A DNA stretch of 25,267 bases from positions 1 through 25,267 of IMG/VR virus record IMGVR_UViG_3300005095_000130; one strand, given 5' to 3'. Shown in pieces: positions 255 through 12,788 of this stretch (its first letter is position 1; each line of letters begins with the position of its first letter). A model generated the notes under the pieces. The model saw only the letters and a program-made list of their open reading frames with translations, was not told where the DNA came from and searched no databases. A program made the position numbers and the translations under genes. This stretch comes from a virus.

Positions 255-496
255 ACACCGAACCCCATGTCCTGCTCTGGGCGTTTTTCGACATCGTGCT
301 TGCCCTCTTGAGCCTGGTTGCTGCCGGAGCTTCGGCGGCCTTCGCGCGGGCGCTCGTGAGGGAGGAGCGAGCGGGGCTCTTCCGTGCGCTCCTCGCCCTG
401 GCCTTCTCCCTGCTCTCGGTGGCACTCGTGATCCTGGCGGTGATCCTGGCCACGCTCGGCCTCGGTACCGCCTGGCGAGGGGGGTGGATCTGGTGA
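251..496 (+). CDS. Small membrane protein with two predicted transmembrane helices
   Basis: This 81-residue protein has two long hydrophobic segments, at about residues 7-32 and 44-70, separated by a short charged stretch rich in Arg and Glu, and a Trp-rich C-terminus. That is a helical hairpin in the cytoplasmic membrane. The start ATG overlaps the stop of the preceding gene, and its TGA stop overlaps the likely GTG start of the RusA gene (GTGA), so it sits inside a translationally coupled early operon. I cannot assign a function. Its position among replication/recombination genes rather than lysis genes makes a holin role unlikely but not excluded. Confidence 0.6.
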   Translation: MNTEPHVLLWAFFDIVLALLSLVAAGASAAFARALVREERAGLFRALLALAFSLLSVALVILAVILATLGLGTAWRGGWIW

Positions 497-834
497 AGCT
501 CACCCTCCCCTGGCCCCCCAGGAGCGGCAACAACCAGCACGGCCAGCGTGCTGGCAAGCGCTACCTGACCCCGGAGATCCGCGCCTACCGCGCTGAGGTG
601 TGGGCTTTGCTGGCCAGGGTTCCTAGGCCGGAGGGGCTGGTGGGGCTCCGGTTCACGCTCTACCCGCCGGATCGGAGGGCGCGGGACGGGGACAACGTGC
701 TGAAGGTGGTCATGGATGCGCTCGTGGCCGGCGGCTGGTTGCCGGACGACTCGAACCGGACGATCGCCCGGTACGTGTGGGGCGAGCCGGTGAAGGACGG
801 GCGGATCGAGGTGGTGGTGGAGGATGTTTCCTAA
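493..834 (+). CDS. rusA: RusA-family crossover junction endodeoxyribonuclease
   Basis: Predicted Holliday junction resolvase that would cut branched DNA during phage replication, recombination or packaging. Counting from GTG 493 the protein is 113 residues, close to the usual RusA length of about 120. It begins with the family's short strand followed by PPRSGNN and a conserved Tyr/Lys stretch. The catalytic signature is clear: D65-G-D67-N, K71, D75 and the pair D85-D86 in GGWLPDD. These match the spacing of E. coli RusA Asp70, Asp72, Lys76 and Asp91. GTG 493 overlaps the preceding stop as GTGA; a GTG three codons upstream at 484 is an alternative. The end overlaps the next gene by 11 bases. 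Confidence 0.9.
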   Translation: MKLTLPWPPRSGNNQHGQRAGKRYLTPEIRAYRAEVWALLARVPRPEGLVGLRFTLYPPDRRARDGDNVLKVVMDALVAGGWLPDDSNRTIARYVWGEPVKDGRIEVVVEDVS

Positions 835-1135: not shown

Positions 1136-1704
1136 CCGCCGAGGAGCGCCAGCTCGCCGAGGCCTGGTACCAGGCCCTCCGTGCCTGGAAGACCCGAAAC
1201 CTCACCGATACCCTGCCCACCGGACCCCGCAGGACGCCGAAGGGGGCGGCGGTGCGGGTGGTCTGGGGGTGTCCGGTTTGCCGTTCGCTCCGAGCGCCCG
1301 AGTTCGACCTGGCCATTTTGGAGGCTCGAGCTCGCGGCGACGATCTGCGCCCGATCGTGCGGTGGATCGCGGAGGAGCTCCGCGTGCGTGAGGAGGTTGT
1401 GTGGACGCACGCCCGCGAGCACCTCGACCCGGCCCCGGCCCGCCCCCTGGTGGGGGAGTGGGCGCGGCGCCGGCGGATCGACCTCGGCGAGCACCTGCTC
1501 ACCCCGGCCGGGTGGATCCCGGTCGAGCGGGTGCTGGCGGTGATTCGGGAGGCGCCGGAGGAGTACCGGGTGCTCTTGGATCAGGTGCGGTTTGGGAAAA
1601 CACGCTTTCGGCGCCTGCTGGATGGTGATGGCTTTTTTCGAGATGCCCGTGCGAAGCGGGTTGGGGAGGCGGTTCTATGGTTCGCGAAGAAGCTGAAGTT
1701 TTAA
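1132..1704 (+). CDS. Putative zinc/helix-turn-helix DNA-binding protein (CxxC...HxxxH)
   Basis: A 190-residue protein starting at GTG 1132, which overlaps the preceding TGA (GTGA). It carries CPVC at residues 47-50 and an H-x3-H at residues 93-97. The 42 residues between them have the look of a helical DNA-binding unit. The same layout with almost the same spacing occurs in the small-terminase candidate at 6621 (C8/C11 and H52/H56), so the two may share a domain. The C-terminal half is basic and ends in FAKKLKF, compatible with nucleic-acid binding. It overlaps the csf1 gene by 28 bases, so it is co-translated with the type IV operon. A specific job (replication accessory, regulator or csf partner) cannot be read from sequence alone. 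Confidence 0.6.
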   Translation: MTAEERQLAEAWYQALRAWKTRNLTDTLPTGPRRTPKGAAVRVVWGCPVCRSLRAPEFDLAILEARARGDDLRPIVRWIAEELRVREEVVWTHAREHLDPAPARPLVGEWARRRRIDLGEHLLTPAGWIPVERVLAVIREAPEEYRVLLDQVRFGKTRFRRLLDGDGFFRDARAKRVGEAVLWFAKKLKF

Positions 1705-2477
1705 CGGTTTCCGGCCTTCTCTGGCGGGCGGCGGGGATGCCAGCACCGAAGTGGGAGCTGGAGCCGGCAGAAGGGCCTTGCGGGACCTGCGGGCGCCCGA
1801 TCACTGCAGGCGTCCCGCAGAAGGCGATCAACAGCCCGACGTTCGCGCAGCACTCCGACTACCTCAAGTACGGCAGCCACGTATGCGCGGCCTGCGCCTG
1901 GCTCTACGGGCTTGGGCGTTCCAGGCCGGGGAATTTCCTTGTGGTGGGGGAGCGGGTTTACTGGCCGGTGATCTCGCTTGAATCCGAAACCGAAGATCGC
2001 CCGTCGTGGCTCCGTGTTATCCGCGAGGTGGCGCGGATGGACCCCCGTCTGCCCGCTGCCGGCGTGTTGACCACTGACGTGAAGCCCCGCCTATGGCCGC
2101 GCACGCGGGTGGTCACGCTCAGGGCATTCGGGCTCTACGTGCACGCACCGGAGTATGACGTGTCCACCTTCGTGGAGCTTGACCTCGCGGAGCTTGAGCG
2201 CGTGGCCCTGGAGATCGGCGAAGCTCTGCGCCAGGGGTTCACGAAGACAGACGTCTACCACGGCCTGTGGCGCAACTACAAACGGATGCGGCGGTTGGGA
2301 AAGGAGGGGATAGAGCTGGAGAAACGCTTATCGGAGGTTCGGCAAAGTGAGGTTTTCGTCCCGGCGCTGGTGGTCGCCGGGGTTAGGAAAGGAGGGAAAC
2401 ATGGAACTGCTGGAAAATCTTACGGAGCAAGAGAAGCACGCGGTGAAGCTCATCAAAACGGCCTTGGACTTCTATAA
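1677..2477 (+). CDS. csf1: Type IV-B CRISPR-Cas Csf1, Cas8-like zinc-finger subunit
   Basis: Predicted large-subunit-like protein of a type IV CRISPR ribonucleoprotein. The 266-residue frame has two zinc-ribbon knuckles, C35-x2-C38 (CGTC) and C70-x2-C73 (CAAC), with an aromatic stretch between them (SPTFAQHSDYL) and AWLYGLG after, the layout known for Csf1. A GGGAGGCGG ribosome-binding site precedes ATG 1677; ATG 1737 is an alternative start but would still keep the zinc site. The assignment rests on the cysteines plus the downstream order cas11-csf2-csf3-cysH, not on a profile search. The last about 25 codons overlap cas11 by 77 bases and look unlike natural protein. Adding one G to the GGGG at 2381-2384 would place a TAG just before the cas11 ribosome-binding site, so the true C-terminus may be shorter. 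Confidence 0.72.
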   Translation: MVREEAEVLTVSGLLWRAAGMPAPKWELEPAEGPCGTCGRPITAGVPQKAINSPTFAQHSDYLKYGSHVCAACAWLYGLGRSRPGNFLVVGERVYWPVISLESETEDRPSWLRVIREVARMDPRLPAAGVLTTDVKPRLWPRTRVVTLRAFGLYVHAPEYDVSTFVELDLAELERVALEIGEALRQGFTKTDVYHGLWRNYKRMRRLGKEGIELEKRLSEVRQSEVFVPALVVAGVRKGGKHGTAGKSYGAREARGEAHQNGLGLL

Positions 2478-2823
2478 CGCCTACGACGGCATCGGGCTTT
2501 TCGCCGGGCCCGGGAGGTATGCGGCCCTTGAAGGGCGGGTGCGGATTGCGGCGGTGCAGAGCCGCACGCTCTTCGAGTTCTGGTCGCGCTTGCTCACCAA
2601 GATGCAGTGGCCGACGCCGCCTAAAAAGGCTGATGCGGTGATCCTTCCAATGCTCCGGCACGAAGACGAGCTCGGCGTGCTCCGGGTTCTGGCTGAGGAG
2701 GCCCCGAGTATCGTCATGCTGGCTAGGGCCTGGCACGACGAGGACAAGGCGGCTAGGAAGGAGGCCTGGGAGGAGGAAGAAGGCGCTACGGAGGACGAGG
2801 GGGTGCTTTTCGATGAAGTCTAA
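2401..2823 (+). CDS. cas11: Type IV-B CRISPR-Cas small subunit, Cas11-like
   Basis: A 140-residue, largely alpha-helical acidic protein sitting between csf1 and csf2, the place of the small subunit that lines the belly of type I/III/IV effector complexes. ATG 2401 follows a good AAGGAGGG site, so it is preferred to an upstream GTG at 2347. Features include a helical N-terminus, an aromatic helix (FEFWSRLL) and a strongly acidic tail (EEEEGATEDEG). No catalytic motif is visible, as expected for Cas11. The gene overlaps csf2 by 11 bases. Small subunits diverge quickly, so this call depends mostly on size, helical content and neighbours; a helical protein of another kind cannot be excluded without structure prediction. 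Confidence 0.62.
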   Translation: MELLENLTEQEKHAVKLIKTALDFYNAYDGIGLFAGPGRYAALEGRVRIAAVQSRTLFEFWSRLLTKMQWPTPPKKADAVILPMLRHEDELGVLRVLAEEAPSIVMLARAWHDEDKAARKEAWEEEEGATEDEGVLFDEV

Positions 2824-3664
2824 ACGGTACTGGATGGAGCTTGAGGCCGTGGAACCCGTGGCTCACGGGGATACGTTGACCGGGGTGGACAACGCCACCA
2901 ACACCCGGCTCTTCATGCGCTCGACGATGCTGGTTCGCGGTGTCCCGATGCGGGTGCCTGACATCAGCGAGAACGCCCTGCGAACGGTGGCGTTCCGGGT
3001 TCCCCTGGCGCTGCATCTGCTGGGGGCCCTCGGGGTCGAGAAGGGGACGCTTCCCCAGGCGGTGGTCAACCTGCTCTTCTCGGGCGGGAACATGGCAGCC
3101 GGCGCGAAGAGCCCGTCGAACGAGATCGAGCTCGGTCACCGCATCCGCGACCTTTATCCCAGCCTCGAGCTTCTTGGGGGCGCGGTGGACAGCTTTATCC
3201 TGCCACGATCCCGGTTGCGCCTGGCGGCCTGGCCGGTGGCGCGGGAGTTCCGTTGGGTTCTGGAACATGTGGCGCCGCATCTCGCCGAGGAAGCCGAGCG
3301 GGTTTCGGTGTTCGACCTCCTCTCCGAAGAGGTGCGCACCCGTGGCACGGGGACGGAGTCGGAGGGCAACCAGATGCTTTACCAGTACGAGGTCTTGGCC
3401 GCCGGGGCGCGGTTTTTCGTGGAGATCACCCTTGAGGCCGCGACTTCCCCGGCGGCAGAGGCGGCGGTGGCTGTTGCCCTGGAACACTGGGACGGCTATT
3501 TCGGCGGCCAGGCGCGTCAGGGGCGGGGGCGGATGGAGATTCGTAACGCCAGCCTGCCCAAGCCCGATGCATACCTCGAGCACGTCGATGGGCATGCGGA
3601 GGCCATGAAGGCCGGTTTGTTGGACGGCACGCTGGGAACGGGGCAGGTGGTATGCAGCCCGTAG
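2813..3664 (+). CDS. csf2: Type IV CRISPR-Cas backbone subunit Csf2 (Cas7-like RAMP)
   Basis: Predicted Cas7-family protein that would polymerise along a guide RNA to form the backbone of the effector. The 283-residue protein starts with a strand and then a loop rich in Asn/Thr/Asp (GVDNATNTRLFMRS), followed by SENALRTVAFR. This resembles the Arg-containing helix of Cas7/Csf2 proteins that contacts RNA. A later segment PSLELLGGAVDSFILPRSRL fits the hydrophobic-strand-Gly pattern seen in Csf2. Length is somewhat short for Csf2. Starts overlap: 11 bases with cas11 before and 13 with csf3 after. Seen directly: composition, order and overlaps. Inferred: RAMP fold and RNA binding. Confidence 0.72.
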   Translation: MKSKRYWMELEAVEPVAHGDTLTGVDNATNTRLFMRSTMLVRGVPMRVPDISENALRTVAFRVPLALHLLGALGVEKGTLPQAVVNLLFSGGNMAAGAKSPSNEIELGHRIRDLYPSLELLGGAVDSFILPRSRLRLAAWPVAREFRWVLEHVAPHLAEEAERVSVFDLLSEEVRTRGTGTESEGNQMLYQYEVLAAGARFFVEITLEAATSPAAEAAVAVALEHWDGYFGGQARQGRGRMEIRNASLPKPDAYLEHVDGHAEAMKAGLLDGTLGTGQVVCSP

Positions 3665-4476
3665 GCGATTTCGGTTACACGGACTGGGCCGAGGATGAGC
3701 CGGCACGCATTGGGCGTGTAACCGAGCTTCGTGAGGAGGCTTTTCCCGGCTCGTTTTTTTATGAGCTGTGGAAAACGTGGGCAAAGCAGCCCGTTCGTCT
3801 TGTACGGGTGATCGCCCACATGCTCGAACCTTACGTTCCAAGCGCTGGTATTCGCGTGCACCTTGACTCGATACTTGCTTGGGCGGTGGCAGACGCCTAC
3901 AGCGACAAAATCGAGGTGGATCGCCCCAGGGTGATTCCCATCCCGGCGGCGGCGCTGTGGACGGATGGCCAGCGGGTGCTTTGGGGTGTGGGGGATTTGG
4001 CCCCAGCACCAGGGCGGTGGATACGAGACAAGCGCTACCGCCATCGCCGTTACAAAGAGGCGGAGGCGGAGTGGTCCCAGCGCAAAAATGCTAACCGCTC
4101 CGTCGGCCGGTGGAAGGATAACCGCGTGCCGGTCGAAGCGGTTTTGACGCCTCGGGTGTGCACCTATGCTCTGGCGATCCCGGAGGCCTTGCGGGAAGTG
4201 CTCAAAGGGGTTACCCACATCGGCTCCAACACGTCCAGAGGGTACGGACGCGTCGATCGATGGGAGGTCGAAGAGGTGAAGCCGGAAGCGGACGACGTCG
4301 ACTTTCTTGCGAACACCTACATATTTCCGCTTCGGAACCTCCCAGCCGAAATGGGCGCGCATCCCAGCGGGCACGAATACCAGCCTGTAGTGGCCTGGGC
4401 TCCGCCCTACTGGTACCTGCCGTGGCACTCGCCCGGCTACGTGCCCCGGTCTAGAGCTCATGCGTGCCCTGGATAA
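3652..4476 (+). CDS. csf3: Type IV CRISPR-Cas Csf3 (Cas5-like RAMP)
   Basis: Predicted Cas5-like subunit that would cap the 5' end of the guide RNA in the complex. The 274-residue protein contains the glycine-rich loop NTSRGYGRVDRW at about residues 193-204, which matches the G-rich loop of Cas5/Csf3 RAMP proteins. Before it lies a long basic, Arg/Lys/Tyr-rich region (residues about 120-165) suitable for RNA contact. The C-terminus is aromatic and Pro-rich (PPYWYLPWHSPGY). It starts at ATG 3652 inside the end of csf2 and overlaps cysH by 17 bases. Base composition is a little lower in GC than the phage head genes. The call is supported by the Gly loop and by gene order; fold confirmation would need a profile or structure search. 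Confidence 0.72.
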   Translation: MQPVGDFGYTDWAEDEPARIGRVTELREEAFPGSFFYELWKTWAKQPVRLVRVIAHMLEPYVPSAGIRVHLDSILAWAVADAYSDKIEVDRPRVIPIPAAALWTDGQRVLWGVGDLAPAPGRWIRDKRYRHRRYKEAEAEWSQRKNANRSVGRWKDNRVPVEAVLTPRVCTYALAIPEALREVLKGVTHIGSNTSRGYGRVDRWEVEEVKPEADDVDFLANTYIFPLRNLPAEMGAHPSGHEYQPVVAWAPPYWYLPWHSPGYVPRSRAHACPG

Positions 4477-5194
4477 GGCGGCGTTCGCCGCGCACTACAG
4501 GACCGCGGCCTTCCGCCGTAGGGTGGACGAGGCCCGCCGGGGGGTTGAGCGATTCTGCGAGACCGCTTCTCACCCGGCGGTCGCCTTCTCTGGTGGCAAG
4601 GATTCAACGGTGGTTTTGCACTTAGTGCGTCAGGCGTGCCCCGAAGCCCCAGCGCTTTTTGGTCATGACGAATGGCTTTTACCGGAGACTGAGGAATACC
4701 TGTCCCGGGTGAAAGGCCTCATTACGTTTGCGTTCAGGGATCAGAAGCACGCAGAGTTCTTCCGTTCATGGGTAGACGGAGAGCCGCCGACGGACTACGT
4801 GTTTGAAGGTAATATCCCGGATTTTGTGCGCCGGATGGGGTACGACGGGCTTGCTTTTGGTCTTCGCATGGACGAGAACAGTTACCGCAAAATGCACGTC
4901 CGCAAGTACGGTCAGCTGTTCTTCTCGCGCACGCGGCGGATCTGGATGGCCTATCCGATTGCGCGCTGGAGCGTGCGCGACGTGTGGGCGTACATCGTGG
5001 GCAACGGCTTGGACTACAACCGCGCCTATGACCGCATGGCGGAGATCGGTGTGCCCTGGCGGGAGCAACGGGTGGGGCCGCTTGCGAACACCAGGGCACT
5101 CCGTGCTGGCCAGGCAGCGCTCCTGCGGCGGGGGTGGCCTGAGCTTTACGAGTGTTTTGCTGATACGTACCCCGAGGTGCGCAGATACGAGTAG
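4460..5194 (+). CDS. cysH: CysH-like PP-loop protein of the type IV-B CRISPR operon
   Basis: A 244-residue member of the adenine-nucleotide alpha-hydrolase (PAPS reductase/DndC-like) superfamily. The ATP-pyrophosphatase P-loop is explicit: SGGKDST at residues 44-50 after a hydrophobic strand (AVAF). Further conserved-looking segments are PALFGHDEWLLPET and YPIARWSVRDVWAYI, the second being the W-x2-W helix region common in these proteins. A cysH-like gene next to csf genes is the recognised hallmark of subtype IV-B. The C-terminal ECGIH-type catalytic cysteine motif of true PAPS/APS reductases is absent (it ends PEVRRYE), and there is no CxxC iron-sulfur site, so sulfate reduction is unlikely. 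It is the last gene of the overlapping operon; its role in type IV-B is not established. Confidence 0.85.
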   Translation: MRALDKAAFAAHYRTAAFRRRVDEARRGVERFCETASHPAVAFSGGKDSTVVLHLVRQACPEAPALFGHDEWLLPETEEYLSRVKGLITFAFRDQKHAEFFRSWVDGEPPTDYVFEGNIPDFVRRMGYDGLAFGLRMDENSYRKMHVRKYGQLFFSRTRRIWMAYPIARWSVRDVWAYIVGNGLDYNRAYDRMAEIGVPWREQRVGPLANTRALRAGQAALLRRGWPELYECFADTYPEVRRYE

Positions 5195-5234: not shown

Positions 5235-5426
5235 TTATGCCCTCTCTAAGGCCTTTTCGACCAACTCCAGCCACTCCGCGGAGTCCATGTCGGCCGCCTT
5301 GGCAATGGTGATCCCACGCTCCTGCAACGCCTCATACACCCGTTCTGCGTCCTCCTCCGTAGCCAGGTCGCCGAGCATCTGCCGTACTGCCTCGATCGGA
5401 TTCATATTTTCGATGAGCTTTTTCAT
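5235..5426 (-). CDS. Small acidic hypothetical protein, sole minus-strand gene
   Basis: A 63-residue acidic, helical protein (many Glu, Ala, Asp; ends VEKALERA) read on the minus strand, convergent with the cysH operon. It has a strong AGGAGG-type ribosome-binding site before the ATG at 5426, a perfect TTGACA -35 box and a palindromic operator in its promoter, so it is very likely expressed and regulated. I see no clear helix-turn-helix and do not recognise the family. Its place beside a CRISPR operon and its own repressible promoter make a regulator, an antitoxin-like protein or a small inhibitor possible, but nothing in the sequence decides among these. Confidence 0.6.
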   Translation of the reverse strand: MKKLIENMNPIEAVRQMLGDLATEEDAERVYEALQERGITIAKAADMDSAEWLELVEKALERA

Positions 5427-5445: not shown

Positions 5446-5474
5446 AGTGTAGCATGGTGCTAGCACCATGTCAA
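5446..5474 (-). promoter_or_regulatory. Sigma-70-type promoter for the minus-strand gene
   Basis: Read on the minus strand, TTGACA (5474-5469) is a perfect -35 box, followed after exactly 17 bases by TACACT (5451-5446) as the -10 box. The start codon of the 63-residue gene lies about 20 bases further on. The spacer is filled by an 18-bp palindrome. Confidence 0.7.
5453..5470. promoter_or_regulatory. 18-bp perfect palindrome, probable repressor operator
   Basis: CATGGTGCTAGCACCATG reads the same on both strands and occupies the -35/-10 spacer of the minus-strand promoter, the classic place for a repressor operator. The 8-mer GGTGCTAG from its left half (5456-5463) occurs again at 5497-5504, 41 bases away (close to four helical turns) and overlapping the likely plus-strand -10 element. 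One dimeric regulator could control both directions. Confidence 0.65.
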
Positions 5475-5498
5475 GCCCTACCCATATATATAGCGCGG

Positions 5499-6508: not shown

Positions 6509-6583
6509 AGCGGGGTGGAGCAACGGTAGCTCGCCGAGCTCATGACCCGGAGGTAGCGGGTTCGACTCCCGCCCCCGCGACCA
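6509..6583 (+). tRNA. tRNA-Met (CAU), initiator-like, CCA encoded
   Basis: A complete 75-base cloverleaf: acceptor AGCGGGG/CCCCGCG, D-stem GAGC/GCTC with a short 7-base loop, anticodon loop CTCATGA with CAT at 6541-6543, a perfect T-arm GCGGG-TTCGACT-CCCGC, discriminator A and an encoded CCA (6581-6583). Three features point to initiator tRNA: an unpaired 1-72 position (A-G), an A11:U24 pair, and near-identity to the bacterial fMet acceptor and D-arm. One oddity is an A30-C40 mismatch where initiators have the conserved G-C triple. An elongator Met or Ile2 identity cannot be fully excluded. The gene lies between a terminator and the terminase module. Confidence 0.85.
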
Positions 6584-6620: not shown

Positions 6621-7136
6621 ATGCTCGGCTACAGCGCCAAGTGCCGGGTCTGCAACAGCCCGCACCGGGAGGAGATCGACGCCCGCCTGCTCGAGGGCTG
6701 GTCGCTTCGCCGTCTGTCCCGGTGGCTCAAGGAGACCTACGGCGAGGCCATCAGCACGGCCTCGCTGCACCGCCACCGCACCGCCCACCTGAACGTCACC
6801 GAAGAGGCGAAGGCCCGCCTCGAGGCCGTCCGCCCCAAGTTCGAGGAGGCGGTCGAGAAGACCCTCGACGAGATCGCCACCCTCGACGAGATTGCCCGGC
6901 TCGGCCTCGAGGTCGCCCGCTCCCTCACGCCGCTGGTCAAGGACCCCGAGGCCCGGGTGTCGAAGGCCAAGGCGGACATCTGGGCGGCGTCGCTCCGCGA
7001 GGCCCGCGAGGCGATGCGGGTAAAGCACGAGATCCTCGAAGGGAAGAAGGTGAACGTTGAGGGGAGCTTCACCGGCCTCGGCGAGCTCTTCGGTCTTGTC
7101 CTCAGCGAGGAAGCTGCTGGCGAGGTGGCGGAATGA
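6621..7136 (+). CDS. Putative terminase small subunit with zinc/HTH N-terminus
   Basis: A 171-residue protein directly upstream of and overlapping the large terminase gene, the usual position of the small subunit that recognises phage DNA. The N-terminus has CRVC (C8, C11), then GWSLRRLSRWLKE, a helix-turn-helix-like segment, then H50/H52/H56 (SLHRHRTAH), together suggesting a zinc-stabilised DNA-binding domain. The remainder is long charged helices (residues about 60-150) suited to oligomer formation. The start codon at 6621 has only a weak GGA upstream, and the tRNA ends 37 bases before it. The function is inferred from position and architecture; small terminases are poorly conserved. Confidence 0.65.
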   Translation: MLGYSAKCRVCNSPHREEIDARLLEGWSLRRLSRWLKETYGEAISTASLHRHRTAHLNVTEEAKARLEAVRPKFEEAVEKTLDEIATLDEIARLGLEVARSLTPLVKDPEARVSKAKADIWAASLREAREAMRVKHEILEGKKVNVEGSFTGLGELFGLVLSEEAAGEVAE

Positions 7137-8454
7137 CCCGGTGGCCTTCGCCCGCGAGGTCCTCCGGGTCCGCCCCTGGAGCCGCCAGGCCGAGGTGCTC
7201 GAGCTCGTGGCCCGCCATCCCTGGGTGGCGGTGCGCTCGGGCCACAAGGTGGGCAAGTCCACCAGCGCGGCCATCCTCGCGCTCTGGTGGGTGCTTACCC
7301 GTTCGAGGGGGCGCGTGGTGCTGACGGCCCCGGCCGACCACCAGGTCAAGAACATCCTCTGGCCCGAGCTAAGGCGGCTCTACCGTCAGGCTGCCGTCCC
7401 GCTTGGGGGCAAGCTCTACGACGACCACCGCTCGGGGCTCAAGTACGAGGACGGGCGTGAGGTGCTGGGGCTCACCACCAACGAGGCCGAGCGCATTGCG
7501 GGCCTTTCGAGCCCGAACCTCTTCTTCATCGTGGACGAGGCCGCCGGCTACCCCGAGGAGCTCTTTGAGGCGGTCTTCGGCAACCTGGCCGGTGGGGGCA
7601 AGGTGCTGCTCCTAGGGAACCCGACGCGCACCTCCGGCACCTTCTACGAGGCCTTCCACCAAAAGCGCGACCTCTGGGCCACGGCGCACATCTCGAGCCT
7701 CGAGAGCCCCTGCATCACCGGGGCCGAGCCTTGCATCCCCGGCCTGGCGACGCCCGAGTGGGTGGAGCGGGCCAGGGCCCAGTGGGGTGGCGAAGAGAGC
7801 CCCATCTACCAGGTGCGGGTGCTCGGCGAGTTCCCGCGCCAGGCGGAGAACGCGGTGATCGGCCTCGAGCTCGTCGAGGCGGCTGCCAAGCGGTGGCCTG
7901 AGACCCCGGAGGACGGGGAACTCGAGCTCGGGGTGGACGTGGCCCGCTACGGCGACGACCGCTCGGTGATCTTCCCCCGCCGGGGCCGGAAGGCCCTCAA
8001 GCCGGTGGTGCTTCGCAGCATGGACGTGGTCGAGGTGGCGGGGAAGGTTCTCGAGACCGCCCGCGCCCTGGCCAGGCCGGGCGAGAAGCCGGTGGTGAAG
8101 GTAGACGAGATCGGGATCGGCGCCGGCGTGGCGGACCTCCTGAAGCGCTCGGGCGAGGTGCGGGTGGTTGCGGTGAACGTCGCCGAACGGGCGCAGGCCG
8201 AGGGCTACGCAAAGCTTCGGGATCAGCTCTGGTTTTCCCTGCGCGACTGGCTCGCCGAGGGCGGTGCGATCCCGCCGATACCCGAGCTCGAGGCCGAGCT
8301 GGTGGCTCCCACCTACACCTTCGACACCCAGGGGCGTATCAAGGTCGAGGCCAAGGATCAGATCAAGAAACGGCTCGGCCGCTCGCCTGACTTGGCAGAC
8401 GCCCTGGCCCTCGCCGTGAGCCGCATGGAGCAAAAGAGGAGCGTGTTCCTGTGA
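7057..8454 (+). CDS. terL: Phage terminase large subunit (ATPase/nuclease)
   Basis: The DNA-packaging motor protein. It carries a Walker A SGHKVGKST (residues 61-69), a Walker B LFFIVDEA (155-162) and a coupling-motif-like GNPTRTSG (188-195). The RNase H-like nuclease part has GVDVARYGDD (about 292-301), VDEIGIGAGV (349-358) and SPDLADALALA near 445, giving the three acidic metal sites. Length of 465 residues is normal for this terminase type. The start is uncertain: TTG 7057 gives an 80-base overlap with the preceding gene, and GTG 7141 is an alternative that still keeps both domains. The segment WRNDPVAFAREVL looks conserved, favouring the earlier start. The end overlaps the portal start as GTGA. 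Confidence 0.93.
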   Translation: MRGASPASASSSVLSSARKLLARWRNDPVAFAREVLRVRPWSRQAEVLELVARHPWVAVRSGHKVGKSTSAAILALWWVLTRSRGRVVLTAPADHQVKNILWPELRRLYRQAAVPLGGKLYDDHRSGLKYEDGREVLGLTTNEAERIAGLSSPNLFFIVDEAAGYPEELFEAVFGNLAGGGKVLLLGNPTRTSGTFYEAFHQKRDLWATAHISSLESPCITGAEPCIPGLATPEWVERARAQWGGEESPIYQVRVLGEFPRQAENAVIGLELVEAAAKRWPETPEDGELELGVDVARYGDDRSVIFPRRGRKALKPVVLRSMDVVEVAGKVLETARALARPGEKPVVKVDEIGIGAGVADLLKRSGEVRVVAVNVAERAQAEGYAKLRDQLWFSLRDWLAEGGAIPPIPELEAELVAPTYTFDTQGRIKVEAKDQIKKRLGRSPDLADALALAVSRMEQKRSVFL

Positions 8455-10475
8455 GCTTTCTTGGCAAGCTGCTGGGCGCATTCCGCCGGGGGGCGCCGCT
8501 CCCCGATCCCCGCCCGTCCATCAGCGGCGGTCTGCTGATCCCCGGCACCGAGCCCGACGCCTTCCCGATCAAAGACAAGGAGGAGCAGCTCGCGGCTTAC
8601 GCCGGTTGGGTCTATGCCGCCGCCTCGCTGATCGCCCAGGATGTGCGGGCGGCCGAGTACCATTTTTGGCGCAAGGTCGGGAAAAACCGCGACGATTGGA
8701 AAGCCGAGGAAGACCACCCTGCACTCCGCCTGCTTGCCCGTCCCTCGCCGATCCACACCTTCGGCGATCTGCTCGAGCTCACCCAGCTCTCCCTCGACCT
8801 CTCCGGCGAGGCCTTCTGGCACTTGGTGACCGACCGCGCGGGCCGCGTGGTGGGGGCGCAGTTCGTGGCCCCGCACTGGGTGCACGAGCCCGTCATCGAG
8901 GACGGGCGTCTGGCTAGCTGGCGGGTGCAGGTGCCCGGCTGGGGCGACGTGCGGCAGATCCCACGCGACGACCTGATCTGGTTCCGCTACCCGCACCCGC
9001 TGGACCCCTGGCGCGGCGCTAGCCCGGTCGAGGCCTTCGCCGCCACCTACCACTTCGACCTCTACCTGCGGGCCTACGGCGCCACCCTGATGCGCAACGA
9101 TGCGGGTATCCCCGCGGGCGTGCTCTCCGTCGAGCACGACCTCACCGAGGAAGAGGCCCTGCTTCTCCAGGAGCGCTGGAAGGACCGCTACTACCGCCGC
9201 CGGGACGGGATCGCGGTGCTCGGTAAGGGCGCGAAGTTCCAGCCGATCGCGATTCCGCTTTCGGACATCAAGTTCCTCGAGGTCGGCCGTTTCACCCGCG
9301 ACCAGATCCTGGGCATCTACCGCGTGCCCGCGAGCAAGCTCGGCCTCGTCGAGGACGTGAACCGGGCCAACGCCGAGGCCAACGACCGCACCTACCGGGC
9401 CAACGCGCTGAGGCCCAGGCTCCGCCGCCTCGAGGAGGCGATCAACGTCTACGTCCTGCCCCGCCTGATTGGTGCCCAGGCCCGGCAGTACTACTTCGAG
9501 TTCGAGGACCCGGTCGAGGAGGACCCCGAGCTCGAGCTCCAGTGGCTCTCCACCGGCCTGAAGAGCGGGGCGGTGACGGTGAACGAGTACCGCGAGGCCG
9601 CAGGGCTCGACCCCCTGCCCGGCGGCGACCGCGTGCTGTTGCCGGCATCGTTGACGCCGACCGAGCTCAAGGGCGCTTCCAGGCCCCAGGCCCGGGCGGC
9701 CAGCGACGACCGCGACCTCGAGCTCGTCGCCCTCCGCTTTCTGGCCAAGCAGGACCCGCTTGAGCGCGAGGCCAAAAGCCGCATCCGCGCGCTCTTTTCC
9801 AAGGAACAAAAGCTCGTGCTCAAGGCCTTCCGCGAGCTGGCGGAGACCCGCGGCCTCGAGGCCCGGGCCTGGTACGACGACCCCCTGGATGAGACCCGTG
9901 AGGACTGGGAGAAGACCCTCGCCGAGATCTGGCGGAGGGCGCTTGAGGTGGGCTGGGGCCTAGTTGCCGCCGATCTCGCTTCGGAGCTGGCCTGGTCGGT
10001 GTACGAGCCGCTTGCCGTCGAGTACGCCGCCCGGCACGCGGCGCTCAACGTCTCGCTGATCCAGGAGACGACCCGGAAGAGGATCCAGGAGCTCGTCAGC
10101 CAGGCCCTGCTTGAGGGCTGGAGCAACGACAGCCTGGCCAAAGCCCTGGCCGAGCTCTACGACGGCTTCAAGGGGGCTAGGGCGGAGACTATCGCCCGCA
10201 CCGAGACCGCCCAGGCGGTGAACCGGGGCAAGTGGGAACATGCTCGCGAGGCGGCCCGCCGGTATGGCCTCGAGATCCGCCGCCGTTGGAGCGCGATCCT
10301 GGACCAGCGGGTCAGGCCCACCCACGCCGCCGCCCACGGGCAGACCGTCGGGTTGCACGAGCCTTATCAGGTGGGCGGTGTCTACTTGGCCCATCCGGGC
10401 GACCCGAGCGGGCCGGCCCGCGAGGTGATCAACTGCCGCTGCACGGAGGTCTTCGAGGTGGTGAAAAATGACTGA
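8451..10475 (+). CDS. Portal protein fused to a MuF-like head morphogenesis domain
   Basis: A 674-residue fusion. Residues about 30-400 are an HK97-type portal: YAGWVYAAASLIAQDV, HPALRLLARPSP, DLSGEAFWHLV and the FTRDQILGIYRVP...LG segment are hallmark stretches. The portal forms the ring through which DNA passes. Residues about 580-670 are a Phage_Mu_F domain, with a TARTETA-like helix (IARTETAQAVNRGKW), the core D-x-R-x2-TH...H and the terminal NCRC at about 660-663. These are usually two separate genes; here they are one frame without an internal stop. It starts at GTG 8451, overlapping terL by 4 bases, and overlaps the protease gene by 8. Confidence 0.9.
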   Translation: MSFLGKLLGAFRRGAPLPDPRPSISGGLLIPGTEPDAFPIKDKEEQLAAYAGWVYAAASLIAQDVRAAEYHFWRKVGKNRDDWKAEEDHPALRLLARPSPIHTFGDLLELTQLSLDLSGEAFWHLVTDRAGRVVGAQFVAPHWVHEPVIEDGRLASWRVQVPGWGDVRQIPRDDLIWFRYPHPLDPWRGASPVEAFAATYHFDLYLRAYGATLMRNDAGIPAGVLSVEHDLTEEEALLLQERWKDRYYRRRDGIAVLGKGAKFQPIAIPLSDIKFLEVGRFTRDQILGIYRVPASKLGLVEDVNRANAEANDRTYRANALRPRLRRLEEAINVYVLPRLIGAQARQYYFEFEDPVEEDPELELQWLSTGLKSGAVTVNEYREAAGLDPLPGGDRVLLPASLTPTELKGASRPQARAASDDRDLELVALRFLAKQDPLEREAKSRIRALFSKEQKLVLKAFRELAETRGLEARAWYDDPLDETREDWEKTLAEIWRRALEVGWGLVAADLASELAWSVYEPLAVEYAARHAALNVSLIQETTRKRIQELVSQALLEGWSNDSLAKALAELYDGFKGARAETIARTETAQAVNRGKWEHAREAARRYGLEIRRRWSAILDQRVRPTHAAAHGQTVGLHEPYQVGGVYLAHPGDPSGPAREVINCRCTEVFEVVKND

Positions 10476-11550
10476 AAAGCTCGAGCTCAGAGGTGCCCTG
10501 CTCCGCGCGCCCGACGAAGGGCGCGTGGTTCGTTTCAGGGCCTCGACGCCGGCGGTGGACCGCCACGGCACCATCGTGCGCCCCGAGGGGATCCGCGCCG
10601 AGAAGTTCGCCAAGAACCCGGTCTTCCTTTGGGGCCACGACGGTTACGGCGGCCTGGTGCCGCCCGACCCCGAATCGGTGATCGGGCGGGTGGTGGCCTG
10701 GGAGAAGTCGCCCGAGGCCTTCGACGTCGACGTCGAGTTTGCCCCCGCCGAGGTCAACCCAAGGGCCGAGATGGCCTTCCGCCTGGTGAAGGCGGGGTTT
10801 TTGAACGCGGTCTCCATCGGCTTCCTGCCGCTTCGCTGGCACGAGGAGCGCGTCCCCGGCGAGGGCGGGGCCGAGGAGGTCCGCGTGGTCTACGACGAGG
10901 TGGAGCTCCTCGAGGTCAGCCTGGTGCCGGTGCCGTCGAACCCCGAGGCGGTGGCCCTGGCCCGCGACATCGCCACCGCTCTCACCCGCGGGGTGGTGCC
11001 CCGGGACGTGAGCGAGAAGCTCGCCTCCGAGGACACCCCCTGGAAGAAGCCGAACCTCGAGGACTTCACTGAGAAATCCTGGGACGAGCTCACCGAGCGG
11101 GAGAAGCGGCGCATCGCCGGCCACTACGCCTGGGCGCCCAAGCTTCCGCCAGAGCGCTTCTCCGACCTAAAACTGCCGCACCACCGCCCTGAGGACGGCG
11201 CCGTGGTCTGGAACGGCGTGCGGGCGGCGATGGCCGCCCTCTTCGGCGCCCGGGGCGGCGTCGACATCCCCGACGAGGACCGGCGCAAGGTCTACAACCA
11301 TCTGGCGCGTCACTACCGCCAGTTCGACAAGGAGCCCCCGGAGTTCAAGCGCTACACAGCGGAGGAGCTCCGGGCCCTCTTCCCTGATCTGGTGGCCGAC
11401 GCGGAGCCGCGCGGCGAGGCCTCTCCCCCGGAAGGGGCAGACCTCGAGGCCGAAGCGGCAGCGCTCCGCGAGGCGCTAAGGGCCTTCAAGGCCAAGGTGG
11501 CTGCGGGGGTGCTCCGCAGCCGAATCGAGCAACTGCTCAAGGAGGTTTGA
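10468..11550 (+). CDS. HK97-like prohead protease (S78) with extra C-terminal domain
   Basis: Capsid maturation protease. The N-terminal about 180 residues match peptidase family S78: the catalytic His lies in FLWGHD (H57) and the catalytic Ser in LNAVSIGF (S115), followed by the LEVSLVPVPSNPEA strand-turn that marks the family. Residues about 195-300 form an additional domain (WDELTEREKRRIAGHYAW ... LPHH ... RGGVDIPDEDRRKVYNHLARHY) that is not part of the classic protease. From memory, similar extensions occur in other phage proteases. The last about 50 residues are a charged coiled coil (AEAAALREALRAFKAK), likely scaffold-like. ATG 10468 overlaps the portal gene; the stop lies 2 bases before the capsid start. 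Confidence 0.88.
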   Translation: MTEKLELRGALLRAPDEGRVVRFRASTPAVDRHGTIVRPEGIRAEKFAKNPVFLWGHDGYGGLVPPDPESVIGRVVAWEKSPEAFDVDVEFAPAEVNPRAEMAFRLVKAGFLNAVSIGFLPLRWHEERVPGEGGAEEVRVVYDEVELLEVSLVPVPSNPEAVALARDIATALTRGVVPRDVSEKLASEDTPWKKPNLEDFTEKSWDELTEREKRRIAGHYAWAPKLPPERFSDLKLPHHRPEDGAVVWNGVRAAMAALFGARGGVDIPDEDRRKVYNHLARHYRQFDKEPPEFKRYTAEELRALFPDLVADAEPRGEASPPEGADLEAEAAALREALRAFKAKVAAGVLRSRIEQLLKEV

Positions 11551-11552
11551 AC

Positions 11553-12788
11553 ATGGACGGGATCGTCAAAGAACTGGAACAGGCGATCGCCCCCGTGGTG
11601 GGGGAGATCAAGGAGATTCGGCAGAAGCTCTCCAAGCTTGAGGCCGCCGGCGTAAAGCCGGACGACACCAAGGTCGCGGACCTCGAGGCCCGGCTCGCCG
11701 AGCTCGAGGAGAAGACCCGCCTCATCGAGGTCGGGGTGGTCGGCAAGCCCGAGCAGAAGCGGGTGGACGTGGACACCGCCCTGCTCGCGGCCGCCGCCCG
11801 GGTGATCCCCGAGGACACCGCCATCAAGCGGGCCATCGACAGCTCGGTGATCGCCAGCGCCGGCAAGCTCAACCCCGAGCAGGCCGACGCCTTCATCGAC
11901 TTCGTGGTCAAGGAGCAGGTCGCCCTCTCGATGGCCCGGGTGCGGCGCATGACCGCCCCGCAGGCCCTCATCGAGGAGCTCGCCGTCAGCGCGCGCAAGC
12001 TGCGCAAGGCCACCGAGGGCACCGCCCCCAGCCTGGCCGACGCCGTCAGCGCCAAGCGGCGGGAGCTCTCCACCGTCGAGGTGATCTGGGCCGAGGACAT
12101 CACGCTGACCTTCCTCGAGGACAACATCGAGCGGCGCGGGGCCGAGAACCACATCGCCCGCCTGCTGGCCACCCAATTCGGCAACGACCTGGCCGACCTG
12201 GGCTGGAAGGGCGACGAGGGCCTGGCGGCCACCATCACCGACAGCAACGGGGACGGCCTCGACGACACCACCGGGCTCACCCAGGCGGATCACAACTTCC
12301 TGCGCACCAACAACGGCTGGCTCAAGATCGCCGGGAGCGACCCCGCCGCCCACGGTTACGACGCGGCTTCGGCGACGAAGGTCTCCGACATCTTCAAGGC
12401 CATGCTCAAGCTCCTGCCCGACAAGTACCGCGGGCTTGAGCTCGTCTTCTTCGTGCCCCCGGAGACCGCCGACGCCTACGCCAACGAGCTCGCGAACCGC
12501 GGCACCAACCTGGGCGACACCGTGATGGTGCAGGGGGTCCCCACCCTGCGCTACTTCGGTTACAAGGTGGTGGCCGACCCCTACCTCCGCAAGGAGGGCA
12601 ACCTCAGCCGCCGGGCGATCCTCACCATCCCCGACAACCTGGTCTTCGGCATCCAACGCGACATCACCATCGACGCCCAGTGGCAGCCGCGGAAGCGGGT
12701 GGTGGAGTACACCATCACCGCCCGCAACGACTACGAGTTCGCCAACGCCGACGCGGTGGTGCTCGCCAGCAACATCCCCGAGCTCTAA
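11553..12788 (+). CDS. Major capsid protein (HK97 fold)
   Basis: The 411-residue shell subunit. The first about 70 residues are a charged coiled coil (IKEIRQKLSKLEAAG...LEARLAELEEKTR), like the delta/scaffolding domain that HK97 proteases remove. The body contains typical capsid features: a long N-arm, the spine helix (NHIARLLATQFGNDLADLGWKGDE), and the C-terminal beta region (GVPTLRYFGYKVV, DNLVFGIQRDITID). ATG 11553 sits 7 bases after GGAGG and is preferred to TTG 11547. A short Ca-binding-like loop DSNGDGLDD at residues 230-238 is unusual. Family assignment (P2/Mu-like group within the HK97 fold) is by general pattern. Gene order after the protease supports it strongly. Confidence 0.88.
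   Translation: MDGIVKELEQAIAPVVGEIKEIRQKLSKLEAAGVKPDDTKVADLEARLAELEEKTRLIEVGVVGKPEQKRVDVDTALLAAAARVIPEDTAIKRAIDSSVIASAGKLNPEQADAFIDFVVKEQVALSMARVRRMTAPQALIEELAVSARKLRKATEGTAPSLADAVSAKRRELSTVEVIWAEDITLTFLEDNIERRGAENHIARLLATQFGNDLADLGWKGDEGLAATITDSNGDGLDDTTGLTQADHNFLRTNNGWLKIAGSDPAAHGYDAASATKVSDIFKAMLKLLPDKYRGLELVFFVPPETADAYANELANRGTNLGDTVMVQGVPTLRYFGYKVVADPYLRKEGNLSRRAILTIPDNLVFGIQRDITIDAQWQPRKRVVEYTITARNDYEFANADAVVLASNIPEL

Follow-up and report, generated by a model that had tools for sequence, protein, structure and literature searches.

The virus record IMGVR_UViG_3300005095_000130 of IMG/VR, a stretch of 25,267 bases analysed here at full length and referred to as the window (a record that may be incomplete, so that absences reported below hold for that part), almost certainly carries the phage-borne effector operon of a subtype IV-B CRISPR (clustered regularly interspaced short palindromic repeats)-Cas system, in five overlapping plus-strand genes that span positions 1677 to 5194 in the order csf1, cas11, csf2, csf3 and cysH. 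To judge from alignments of related loci, the csf1-to-cysH block moves between and within tailed phages as one unit, and the window Csf2 belongs to a virus-associated clade apart from plasmid-borne IV-B. Since the function of IV-B is named as an open question in the accessible text of several papers (PMC7937560; PMC8175902; PMC11656645), we also weigh what such a block might do, and tentatively propose as the best overall explanation a mobile phage IV-B block that would use CRISPR RNA (crRNA) supplied in trans, serve counter-defence and possess a CysH-like protein that transfers adenosine monophosphate (AMP).

The first gene, csf1 (1677-2477), encodes a Cas8-like large subunit of 266 residues that matches the PADLOC profile typeIV_Cas8/Csf1 (PDLC01721; E 1.3e-14, residues 18-93) and has two CxxC pairs, whose cysteines C35, C38, C70 and C73 are unchanged in all 13 aligned clade members. 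The frame of cas11, which matches typeIV_Cas11 (PDLC01695; E 5.2e-8), opens at GTG 2347, yet the start is most likely ATG 2401 because AGGAGG stands before it (sequence 2390-2403); the gene would thus run from 2401 to 2823 and encode a small subunit of 140 residues, and successive operon genes would overlap by 77, 11, 13 and 17 bp. The Cas7-like backbone protein Csf2 (2813-3664; 283 residues) matches typeIV_Cas7 (PDLC01572; E 3.8e-32), and the Cas5-like Csf3 (3652-4476; 274 residues) matches typeIV_Cas5 (PDLC01727; E 8.5e-25, residues 51-267), its G-x-G loop, RGYGR, lying within a block that holds the invariant G197 and G199 in 13 aligned rows. The last gene (4460-5194) encodes CasCysH, a 244-residue PP-loop protein of the 3'-phosphoadenosine 5'-phosphosulfate (PAPS) reductase family with the motif SGGKDS, matched by PF01507 (PAPS_reduct; E 6.3e-16). 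Since scores against the curated NCBIfam models fall far below their cut-offs (Csf1, E 1.6e-4 and 21.4 bits against 140; Csf2, E 5.7e-5 and 22.5 bits against 130; Csf3, E 1.2e-9 and 38.1 bits against 140), the window Csf1, Csf2 and Csf3 are best described as divergent members of their families. An earlier note on this DNA had read the five overlapping genes in just this way, with a double-CxxC Csf1-like product, a small protein at 2347-2823, Csf2, Csf3 with its RGYGR loop and a CysH-like PP-loop protein, and had been ready to abandon the reading had Csf1, Csf2 or Csf3 found no match; all three are matched and all five frames are open, so that its description stands, save for the cas11 start, which is most likely the later one.

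Structure comparison agrees with the profiles. The AlphaFold model of Csf1 (mean predicted local distance difference test score, pLDDT, 84.9; 13 sequences) has as its best match among 58 PDB chains compared the Csf1 of a type IV-A complex (8rc3_G; Z 12.2, root-mean-square deviation 4.3, 197 aligned residues), followed by another IV-A Csf1 (Z 11.1), a third Csf1 (Z 7.8) and only then by a type III Cas10 (Z 3.9). The contents that define IV-B, namely Csf2, Csf1, Csf3, a Cas11-like small subunit and a CysH-like protein devoid of the reductase cysteine, are all present, and the array and adaptation genes that IV-B lacks were not found (no array in the window or 44 other loci; cas1 in none of 18 virus records of relatives). 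One result weighs against assignment by the backbone protein: although phmmer matches window Csf2 to the IV-B Csf2 7jhy (E 6.2e-8), a 15-sequence Csf2 profile run against solved chains scores the "Cas7c" of 11fs (138.8 bits) slightly above 7jhy (136.6 bits), with IV-A chains at 50.8 bits or less, and Csf2 alone therefore fails to separate IV-B from 11fs. It is Csf1, Cas11 and CysH together that establish the subtype, and profiles, tree and fold comparison concur on the IV-B content that the earlier note had recognized within a phage genome. Of the features of IV-A, neither a DinG helicase nor Cas6/Csf5 was matched among ten open reading frames (ORFs) around the operon, and the window has no array. 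Subtype IV-C was also considered and set aside, its Cas10-like large subunit being replaced here by a Csf1 profile match and fold.

Relatives proved scarce when viral contigs were scanned with single proteins (one for Csf2, none for CysH), and window Csf2 had no match among INPHARED phages. Csf2 profiles retrieved 12 viral contigs in a broad version and 11 in a clade-specific version, five of them common to both, and the latter also matched three contigs in bacterial metagenome-assembled genomes (MAGs). The resulting clade comprises 15 loci, the window and L017-L030 (L017-L019 being those from MAGs), not all of them proven viruses: L027 and L028 are viral records whose neighbouring genes are unconfirmed as phage genes. 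Gene lists of relatives come from crude longest-ORF picking, with labels assigned by eye where no family scan was run. Both csf2 and csf3 occur in all 15 loci (L026 ends inside csf3 and L030 starts inside csf2), and cysH in 14, the exception being the truncated L026. Thirteen loci have csf1, since the contigs of L019 and L030 open within the block, and 13 have cas11 (missing from L030 and from L028, which begins shortly before csf2). Gene order is that of the window except in L027 and L028, where csf1 follows cysH. Nine more distant loci (L003, L004 and L010-L016) have cysH in every case and csf1 in eight; cas11 went undetected in them with a profile built from the window clade, a result of little weight. 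In a Csf2 tree of 31 rows, the 14 clade rows form one group (100/99), whose stem measures 1.91 changes per column, four plasmid IV-B rows form a separate group (100/99), and the cultured phage SPI1 joins the latter (98/99); the tree has long branches and some of its joins are flagged as possibly false, which counts against leaning heavily on it. Extra sequence separates csf3 from cysH in L017, L021, L022 and L029, encoding a weakly helix-turn-helix-like protein in L021 and IbrA-like (PF01507 plus DUF3440), ParB-like and methylase-like genes in L029. An IbrA-like gene of the PAPS-reductase family and a ParB-like gene lie near IV-B genes in five of 25 records (L003, L004, L013, L014 and L029). 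In L027 (10001-10836) a single in-frame TAG stands near the end of an otherwise open csf2, by decay, sequencing error or recoding.

That the block travels as a unit is indicated by three close pairs of loci. Block identity is 95.5% over 3485 bp between L024 and L025, 87% over 3500 bp between L023 and L024, and 77% over 3858 bp between L017 and L022, and in each pair the match is bounded, within about 25 bp, by the csf1 start and the cysH stop. The L024 block is flanked by a Mu-type portal gene (PF06074) and a gpT capsid gene (PF10124), and the L025 contig has a gpJ gene (PF24801). Judged by their operon stretches, which have only the block in common, L024 and L025 might be taken for unrelated phages. 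This is overturned by a piecewise comparison of the two contigs (31 and 35 kb), which share ten further stretches outside the block, of 47-2616 bp and 78-98% identity, all inverted and, on the assumption of circularly permuted ends, in a single order. Only the block matches in direct orientation, and it is located elsewhere. Because its place and orientation differ against a common backbone, L024 and L025 are, on these alignments, related phages in which the block has moved or been gained twice. The L017 and L022 contigs have only 267 and 61 bp in common outside the block, and the window and L020 differ far more in portal (28% identity) than in most of the block (Csf1 61%, Cas11 71%, Csf2 76%, Csf3 37%, CysH 49%), and it is this contrast between block and backbone identity that argues for transfer. 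Backbone genes are otherwise scarcely shared: at E 1e-4, the 29 window proteins outside the operon have no match in 23 of 24 operon stretches, SPI1 included, and two weak ones in L016 (TerS-like, 31%; part of the portal, 26%), and six of 24 further contig pieces hold remote counterparts (28-44%) of RusA, portal, a tail-module ORF (13494) and the tape-measure ORF. Conversely, two relatives by terminase large subunit (TerL), L031 (66%) and L032 (64%), have different genes upstream of TerL, and IV-B genes are absent from the stretches fetched for them.

Selection appears to have maintained what moves. Ratios of nonsynonymous to synonymous substitution rates (dN/dS) are 0.08-0.34 in all 15 gene comparisons of the three close pairs, with Csf2 the lowest of the five genes in each pair (0.08-0.12), and 0.12-0.27 in four genes between the window and L020, Csf3 being saturated; such values indicate purifying selection on the operon genes. 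The presence of one block at differing positions in related phages suggests that csf1-to-cysH is the unit under selection and that CysH is tied to the complex; for the same reason, an RNA gene of the block could lie only within its coding sequences. In the window likewise, since the genes overlap, an RNA gene could be accommodated only inside coding sequence.

Across 45 loci (719 kb drawn from 25 records; the loci overlap, so that the unique length is smaller), repeat scans turned up no CRISPR array, the repeats encountered being coding repeats, simple tandem repeats or isolated short pairs, as judged by eye. Rfam models at gathering scores matched three transfer RNAs (tRNAs) across 5 sources and had no match in 10 others, and the sole cas1 match among 19 records (the 18 virus records of relatives, the window being outside the search, and one more) belongs to the bacterial MAG behind L017. 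With neither array nor RNA gene found, the RNA must come from elsewhere, and we consider it probable that it is supplied in trans; that it is crRNA has, in our estimate, a little under an even chance. The best hint of crRNA use, limited to one lineage, comes from two sister blocks in which csf3 and cysH stand about 500 bp apart, with a gene between them for a Cas6e-family protein of some 173 residues (PF08798, cut-off 25): L022, 11472-11993 (48.9 bits, E 1.3e-12), and L017, 11475-11999 (46.9 bits, E 5e-12). This family occurs in three of 22 records, the third case being on another contig of the MAG behind L018, and IV-B is described, in the accessible text of PMC8175902, as being without a crRNA-processing enzyme. 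These Cas6e genes also suggest which RNA to seek. On the viral contig of L028, type I-G Cas7g and Cas5-6g (8115-9868) lie within 8 kb of IV-B genes. A hairpin resembling the I-E repeat, sought in 14 loci, appeared once, in L084 (the contig that carries the L017 block), and is a chance occurrence (2 matches on both strands against a shuffle mean of 1.35). The MAG behind L017 has CRISPR repeats of 36 nt, and 23 spacers from it matched no IV-B locus, their single match, of 16 bases, falling in L033.

Several observations weigh against crRNA supplied in trans. Blocks with Cas6e number two, both of one lineage, and the window block is not among them; the purified plasmid IV-B complex bound heterogeneous RNA in which I-E crRNA was not enriched, and 97.8% of IV-B operons lack an array, so that any crRNA would be foreign (both from the part of PMC7937560 consulted); and a mini-array is reported in Fuxivirus (PMC10848311, likewise in the part consulted). 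By analogy with solved class 1 complexes, Csf2 subunits and Cas11 would form a filament on an RNA with Csf3 and Csf1 at the ends. The RNA would enter from outside the block, most likely as crRNA of host CRISPR systems cut by host Cas6, or by the block-encoded Cas6e in the two sister blocks, and its uptake might disarm host interference complexes or redirect their guides during infection, with CasCysH, an enzyme of the ATP-pyrophosphatase fold, acting together with the complex to transfer AMP to a substrate. Counter-defence as the benefit to the phage we regard as possible, at somewhat less than even odds. A broader conception, that the virus-associated branch is a traded, guide-free module that hijacks host crRNA (with a Cas6e of its own in some cases) and whose AMP-transferring CysH inactivates or marks a target, turning host immune RNA into phage counter-defence, is more speculative and would have to be called unlikely as a whole.

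Other functions can be envisaged, and the earlier note inferred that the operon might serve competition with other elements or control of host RNA. Under the latter, the filament would act as a non-specific sponge that coats any small RNA, crRNA included, and CysH would modify the bound RNA. The plasmid complex, whose bound RNA was heterogeneous but uniform in length (PMC7937560, as far as consulted), the block without any RNA gene or array found, and the strong constraint on Csf2 noted above would all suit such a role; Csf3 and Csf1, the expected readers of RNA end and target, are however retained under selection, Csf1 keeps its type IV fold, and the capture of Cas6e by two sister blocks would make little sense, so that we hold a sponge to be the less likely reading, perhaps one chance among several. 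Competition between elements, or superinfection exclusion, in which the complex would use trans guides to silence competing phages or plasmids while leaving them uncut, seems less probable again. IV-A systems do act so between plasmids (PMC11656645, in its accessible text), the window Csf1 resembles in fold the Csf1 of IV-A complexes bound to DNA, and the block moves among phages, but no array was found in the virus records examined, hence no target of the phage's choosing, and no CRISPR-type helicase or nuclease came up in a scan of ten ORFs around the operon.

The CysH motif S-[GWAF]-G-K-[DQ]-S is present in all 22 aligned rows, with D in 21 (SGGKDS in 8, SWGKDS in 7, SAGKDS in 4, SFGKDS in 2 and SFGKQS in 1), and S44, G46, K47, S49, G134, E139, P166 and W170 (window numbering) are invariant. 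No cysteine is: none of the alignment columns has Cys in more than 6 of the 22 rows. PAPS reductase (CysH in the strict sense) was consequently rejected as an identity, since it has a C-terminal catalytic cysteine and these rows conserve none, though the fold is shared. As the accessible text of PMC8175902 has it, this cysteine is required for the chemistry of both PAPS reductase and DndC, and adenylyl transfer by CasCysH without sulfur chemistry was proposed there earlier. The missing cysteine fits such a transfer, and the fold leaves the question undecided. The model (pLDDT 84.6) scores highest with adenylyltransferases, at Z 16.9 (8ron) and 16.5 with FAD synthase and 16.4 with the ATP sulfurylase CysD (1zun), and reaches 13-16 with sulfonucleotide reductases. 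Two points count against reading adenylyl transfer out of the fold, namely that this order of FAD synthase, CysD and best reductase is close to tied, and that Foldseek ranks the PAPS reductase 6vpu first (E 6.1e-8) and FAD synthase second. On balance, adenylyl transfer by CysH stands at about even odds. That CysH works instead by itself or on phage DNA, in sulfur metabolism or DndC-like phosphorothioation with the Csf proteins only steering, could draw on the PF01507 match, on profile matches to BrxP (E 6.1e-11) and DndC (E 1.8e-7), on the Foldseek ranking and on the IbrA-like and ParB-like genes near IV-B genes in five of 25 records; lacking a conserved cysteine, and with none of the ten ORFs scanned near the operon being a dnd partner gene, it is improbable. 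A decaying, functionless relic of a plasmid IV-B system, for which one might cite the small number of relatives (a pattern-based scan gave 11 viral contigs) and the csf2 stop in one of these, L027, is disfavoured as very improbable by the open window genes, purifying selection in relatives, repeated movement of the whole block and largely kept gene order.

A cultured carrier of such an operon exists in Skermania phage SPI1 (KR011061, 55,748 bp, from wastewater), the only phage retrieved from INPHARED with the Csf2 of Mycobacterium sp. JS623 as query. Its orf40-44, all annotated as hypothetical, form a complete csf1-cas11-csf2-csf3-cysH operon (L055; KR011061.1, 32609-36242) upstream of lysin and holin genes, identified by PADLOC (Cas8 1.9e-28, Cas11 5.9e-15, Cas7 1.2e-66, Cas5 2.1e-36) and, for the fifth gene, which has no PADLOC match, by a CysH profile (E 2.7e-46). 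SPI1 thus has the same five genes as the window but a Csf2 of the plasmid group, and its Csf1, in the sequence as listed, lacks paired CxxC, of which the window protein has two. Plasmid IV-B systems (Mycobacterium sp. JS623, source of 7jhy, and Mycobacterium, Rhodococcus and Gordonia plasmids) have csf1, cas11, csf2 and csf3 as in the window and a Csf2 alignable with the window's, although in a separate clade; a gene of the PAPS-reductase family is present on two of three plasmid stretches, where it lies on the opposite strand and 2-3 kb away, whereas the window cysH overlaps csf3. Fuxivirus of Bathyarchaeia, as described in the part of PMC10848311 consulted, resembles the window in having IV-B genes and cysH in a tailed virus and differs in its archaeal host and two-repeat mini-array, no array having been found in the window. 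Type IV-A shares the Csf1 fold and the Csf2 and Csf3 families, but has DinG, Cas6/Csf5 and an array, in place of which the window has a CysH-like gene. Virus-borne IV-B is therefore already published, for the Bathyarchaeia viruses, as is type IV in some prophages and lytic phages (PMC11656645, accessible text). A literature search found no phage IV-B with cysH or Cas6e beyond the papers cited here, and searches on SPI1 with CRISPR gave no mention of Skermania among the matches listed; published surveys may hold clade members. As far as these searches reach, the new findings are the clade associated with viruses, the limits of the block together with its relocation, the blocks with Cas6e, and the SPI1 operon. 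In a phage, any benefit of IV-B becomes measurable over a life cycle by counting plaques, and SPI1 is a carrier in culture.

In the window the operon lies, as the earlier note had placed it, between a RusA-like Holliday junction resolvase gene (484-834, plus strand; PF05866 E 2.5e-10, phrog_34 E 1e-28) and the terminase genes. Two ORFs without a family match at the limits used (Pfam, NCBIfam, PADLOC and PHROG profiles), at 824-1135 and 1132-1704 on the plus strand, overlap each other and the second overlaps csf1, and for this reason the block appears to read on from the RusA gene. After a small minus-strand ORF (5235-5426) come the packaging and structural genes, all on the plus strand: TerL (7057-8454; tblastn against annotated phage terminases, at most 37.6% identity, E 1e-75), portal (8451-10475; tblastn against annotated portal genes), an ORF at 10468-11550 that we take from gene order to be protease-like, and major capsid protein (MCP; 11547-12788; tblastn against annotated capsid genes). 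The Deinococcota host suggested by the earlier note found no support: matches of TerL, MCP and portal in the phage collection are all below 60% identity, and the organisms among those listed (Salinibacter, Vibrio, Microbacterium, Streptomyces, Mycobacterium, Gordonia and others) include neither Thermus nor Deinococcus. Promoter-like sites (1, against 0.8 in shuffles) and terminator-like sites (6, against 5.9) show no excess. A perfect 18-bp palindrome (5453-5470) with a related half-site near 5495, which looks operator-like by eye, covers a promoter-like site of the minus-strand ORF, and a tRNA-Met (CAT) gene lies at 6509-6583, between the operon and the terminase genes.

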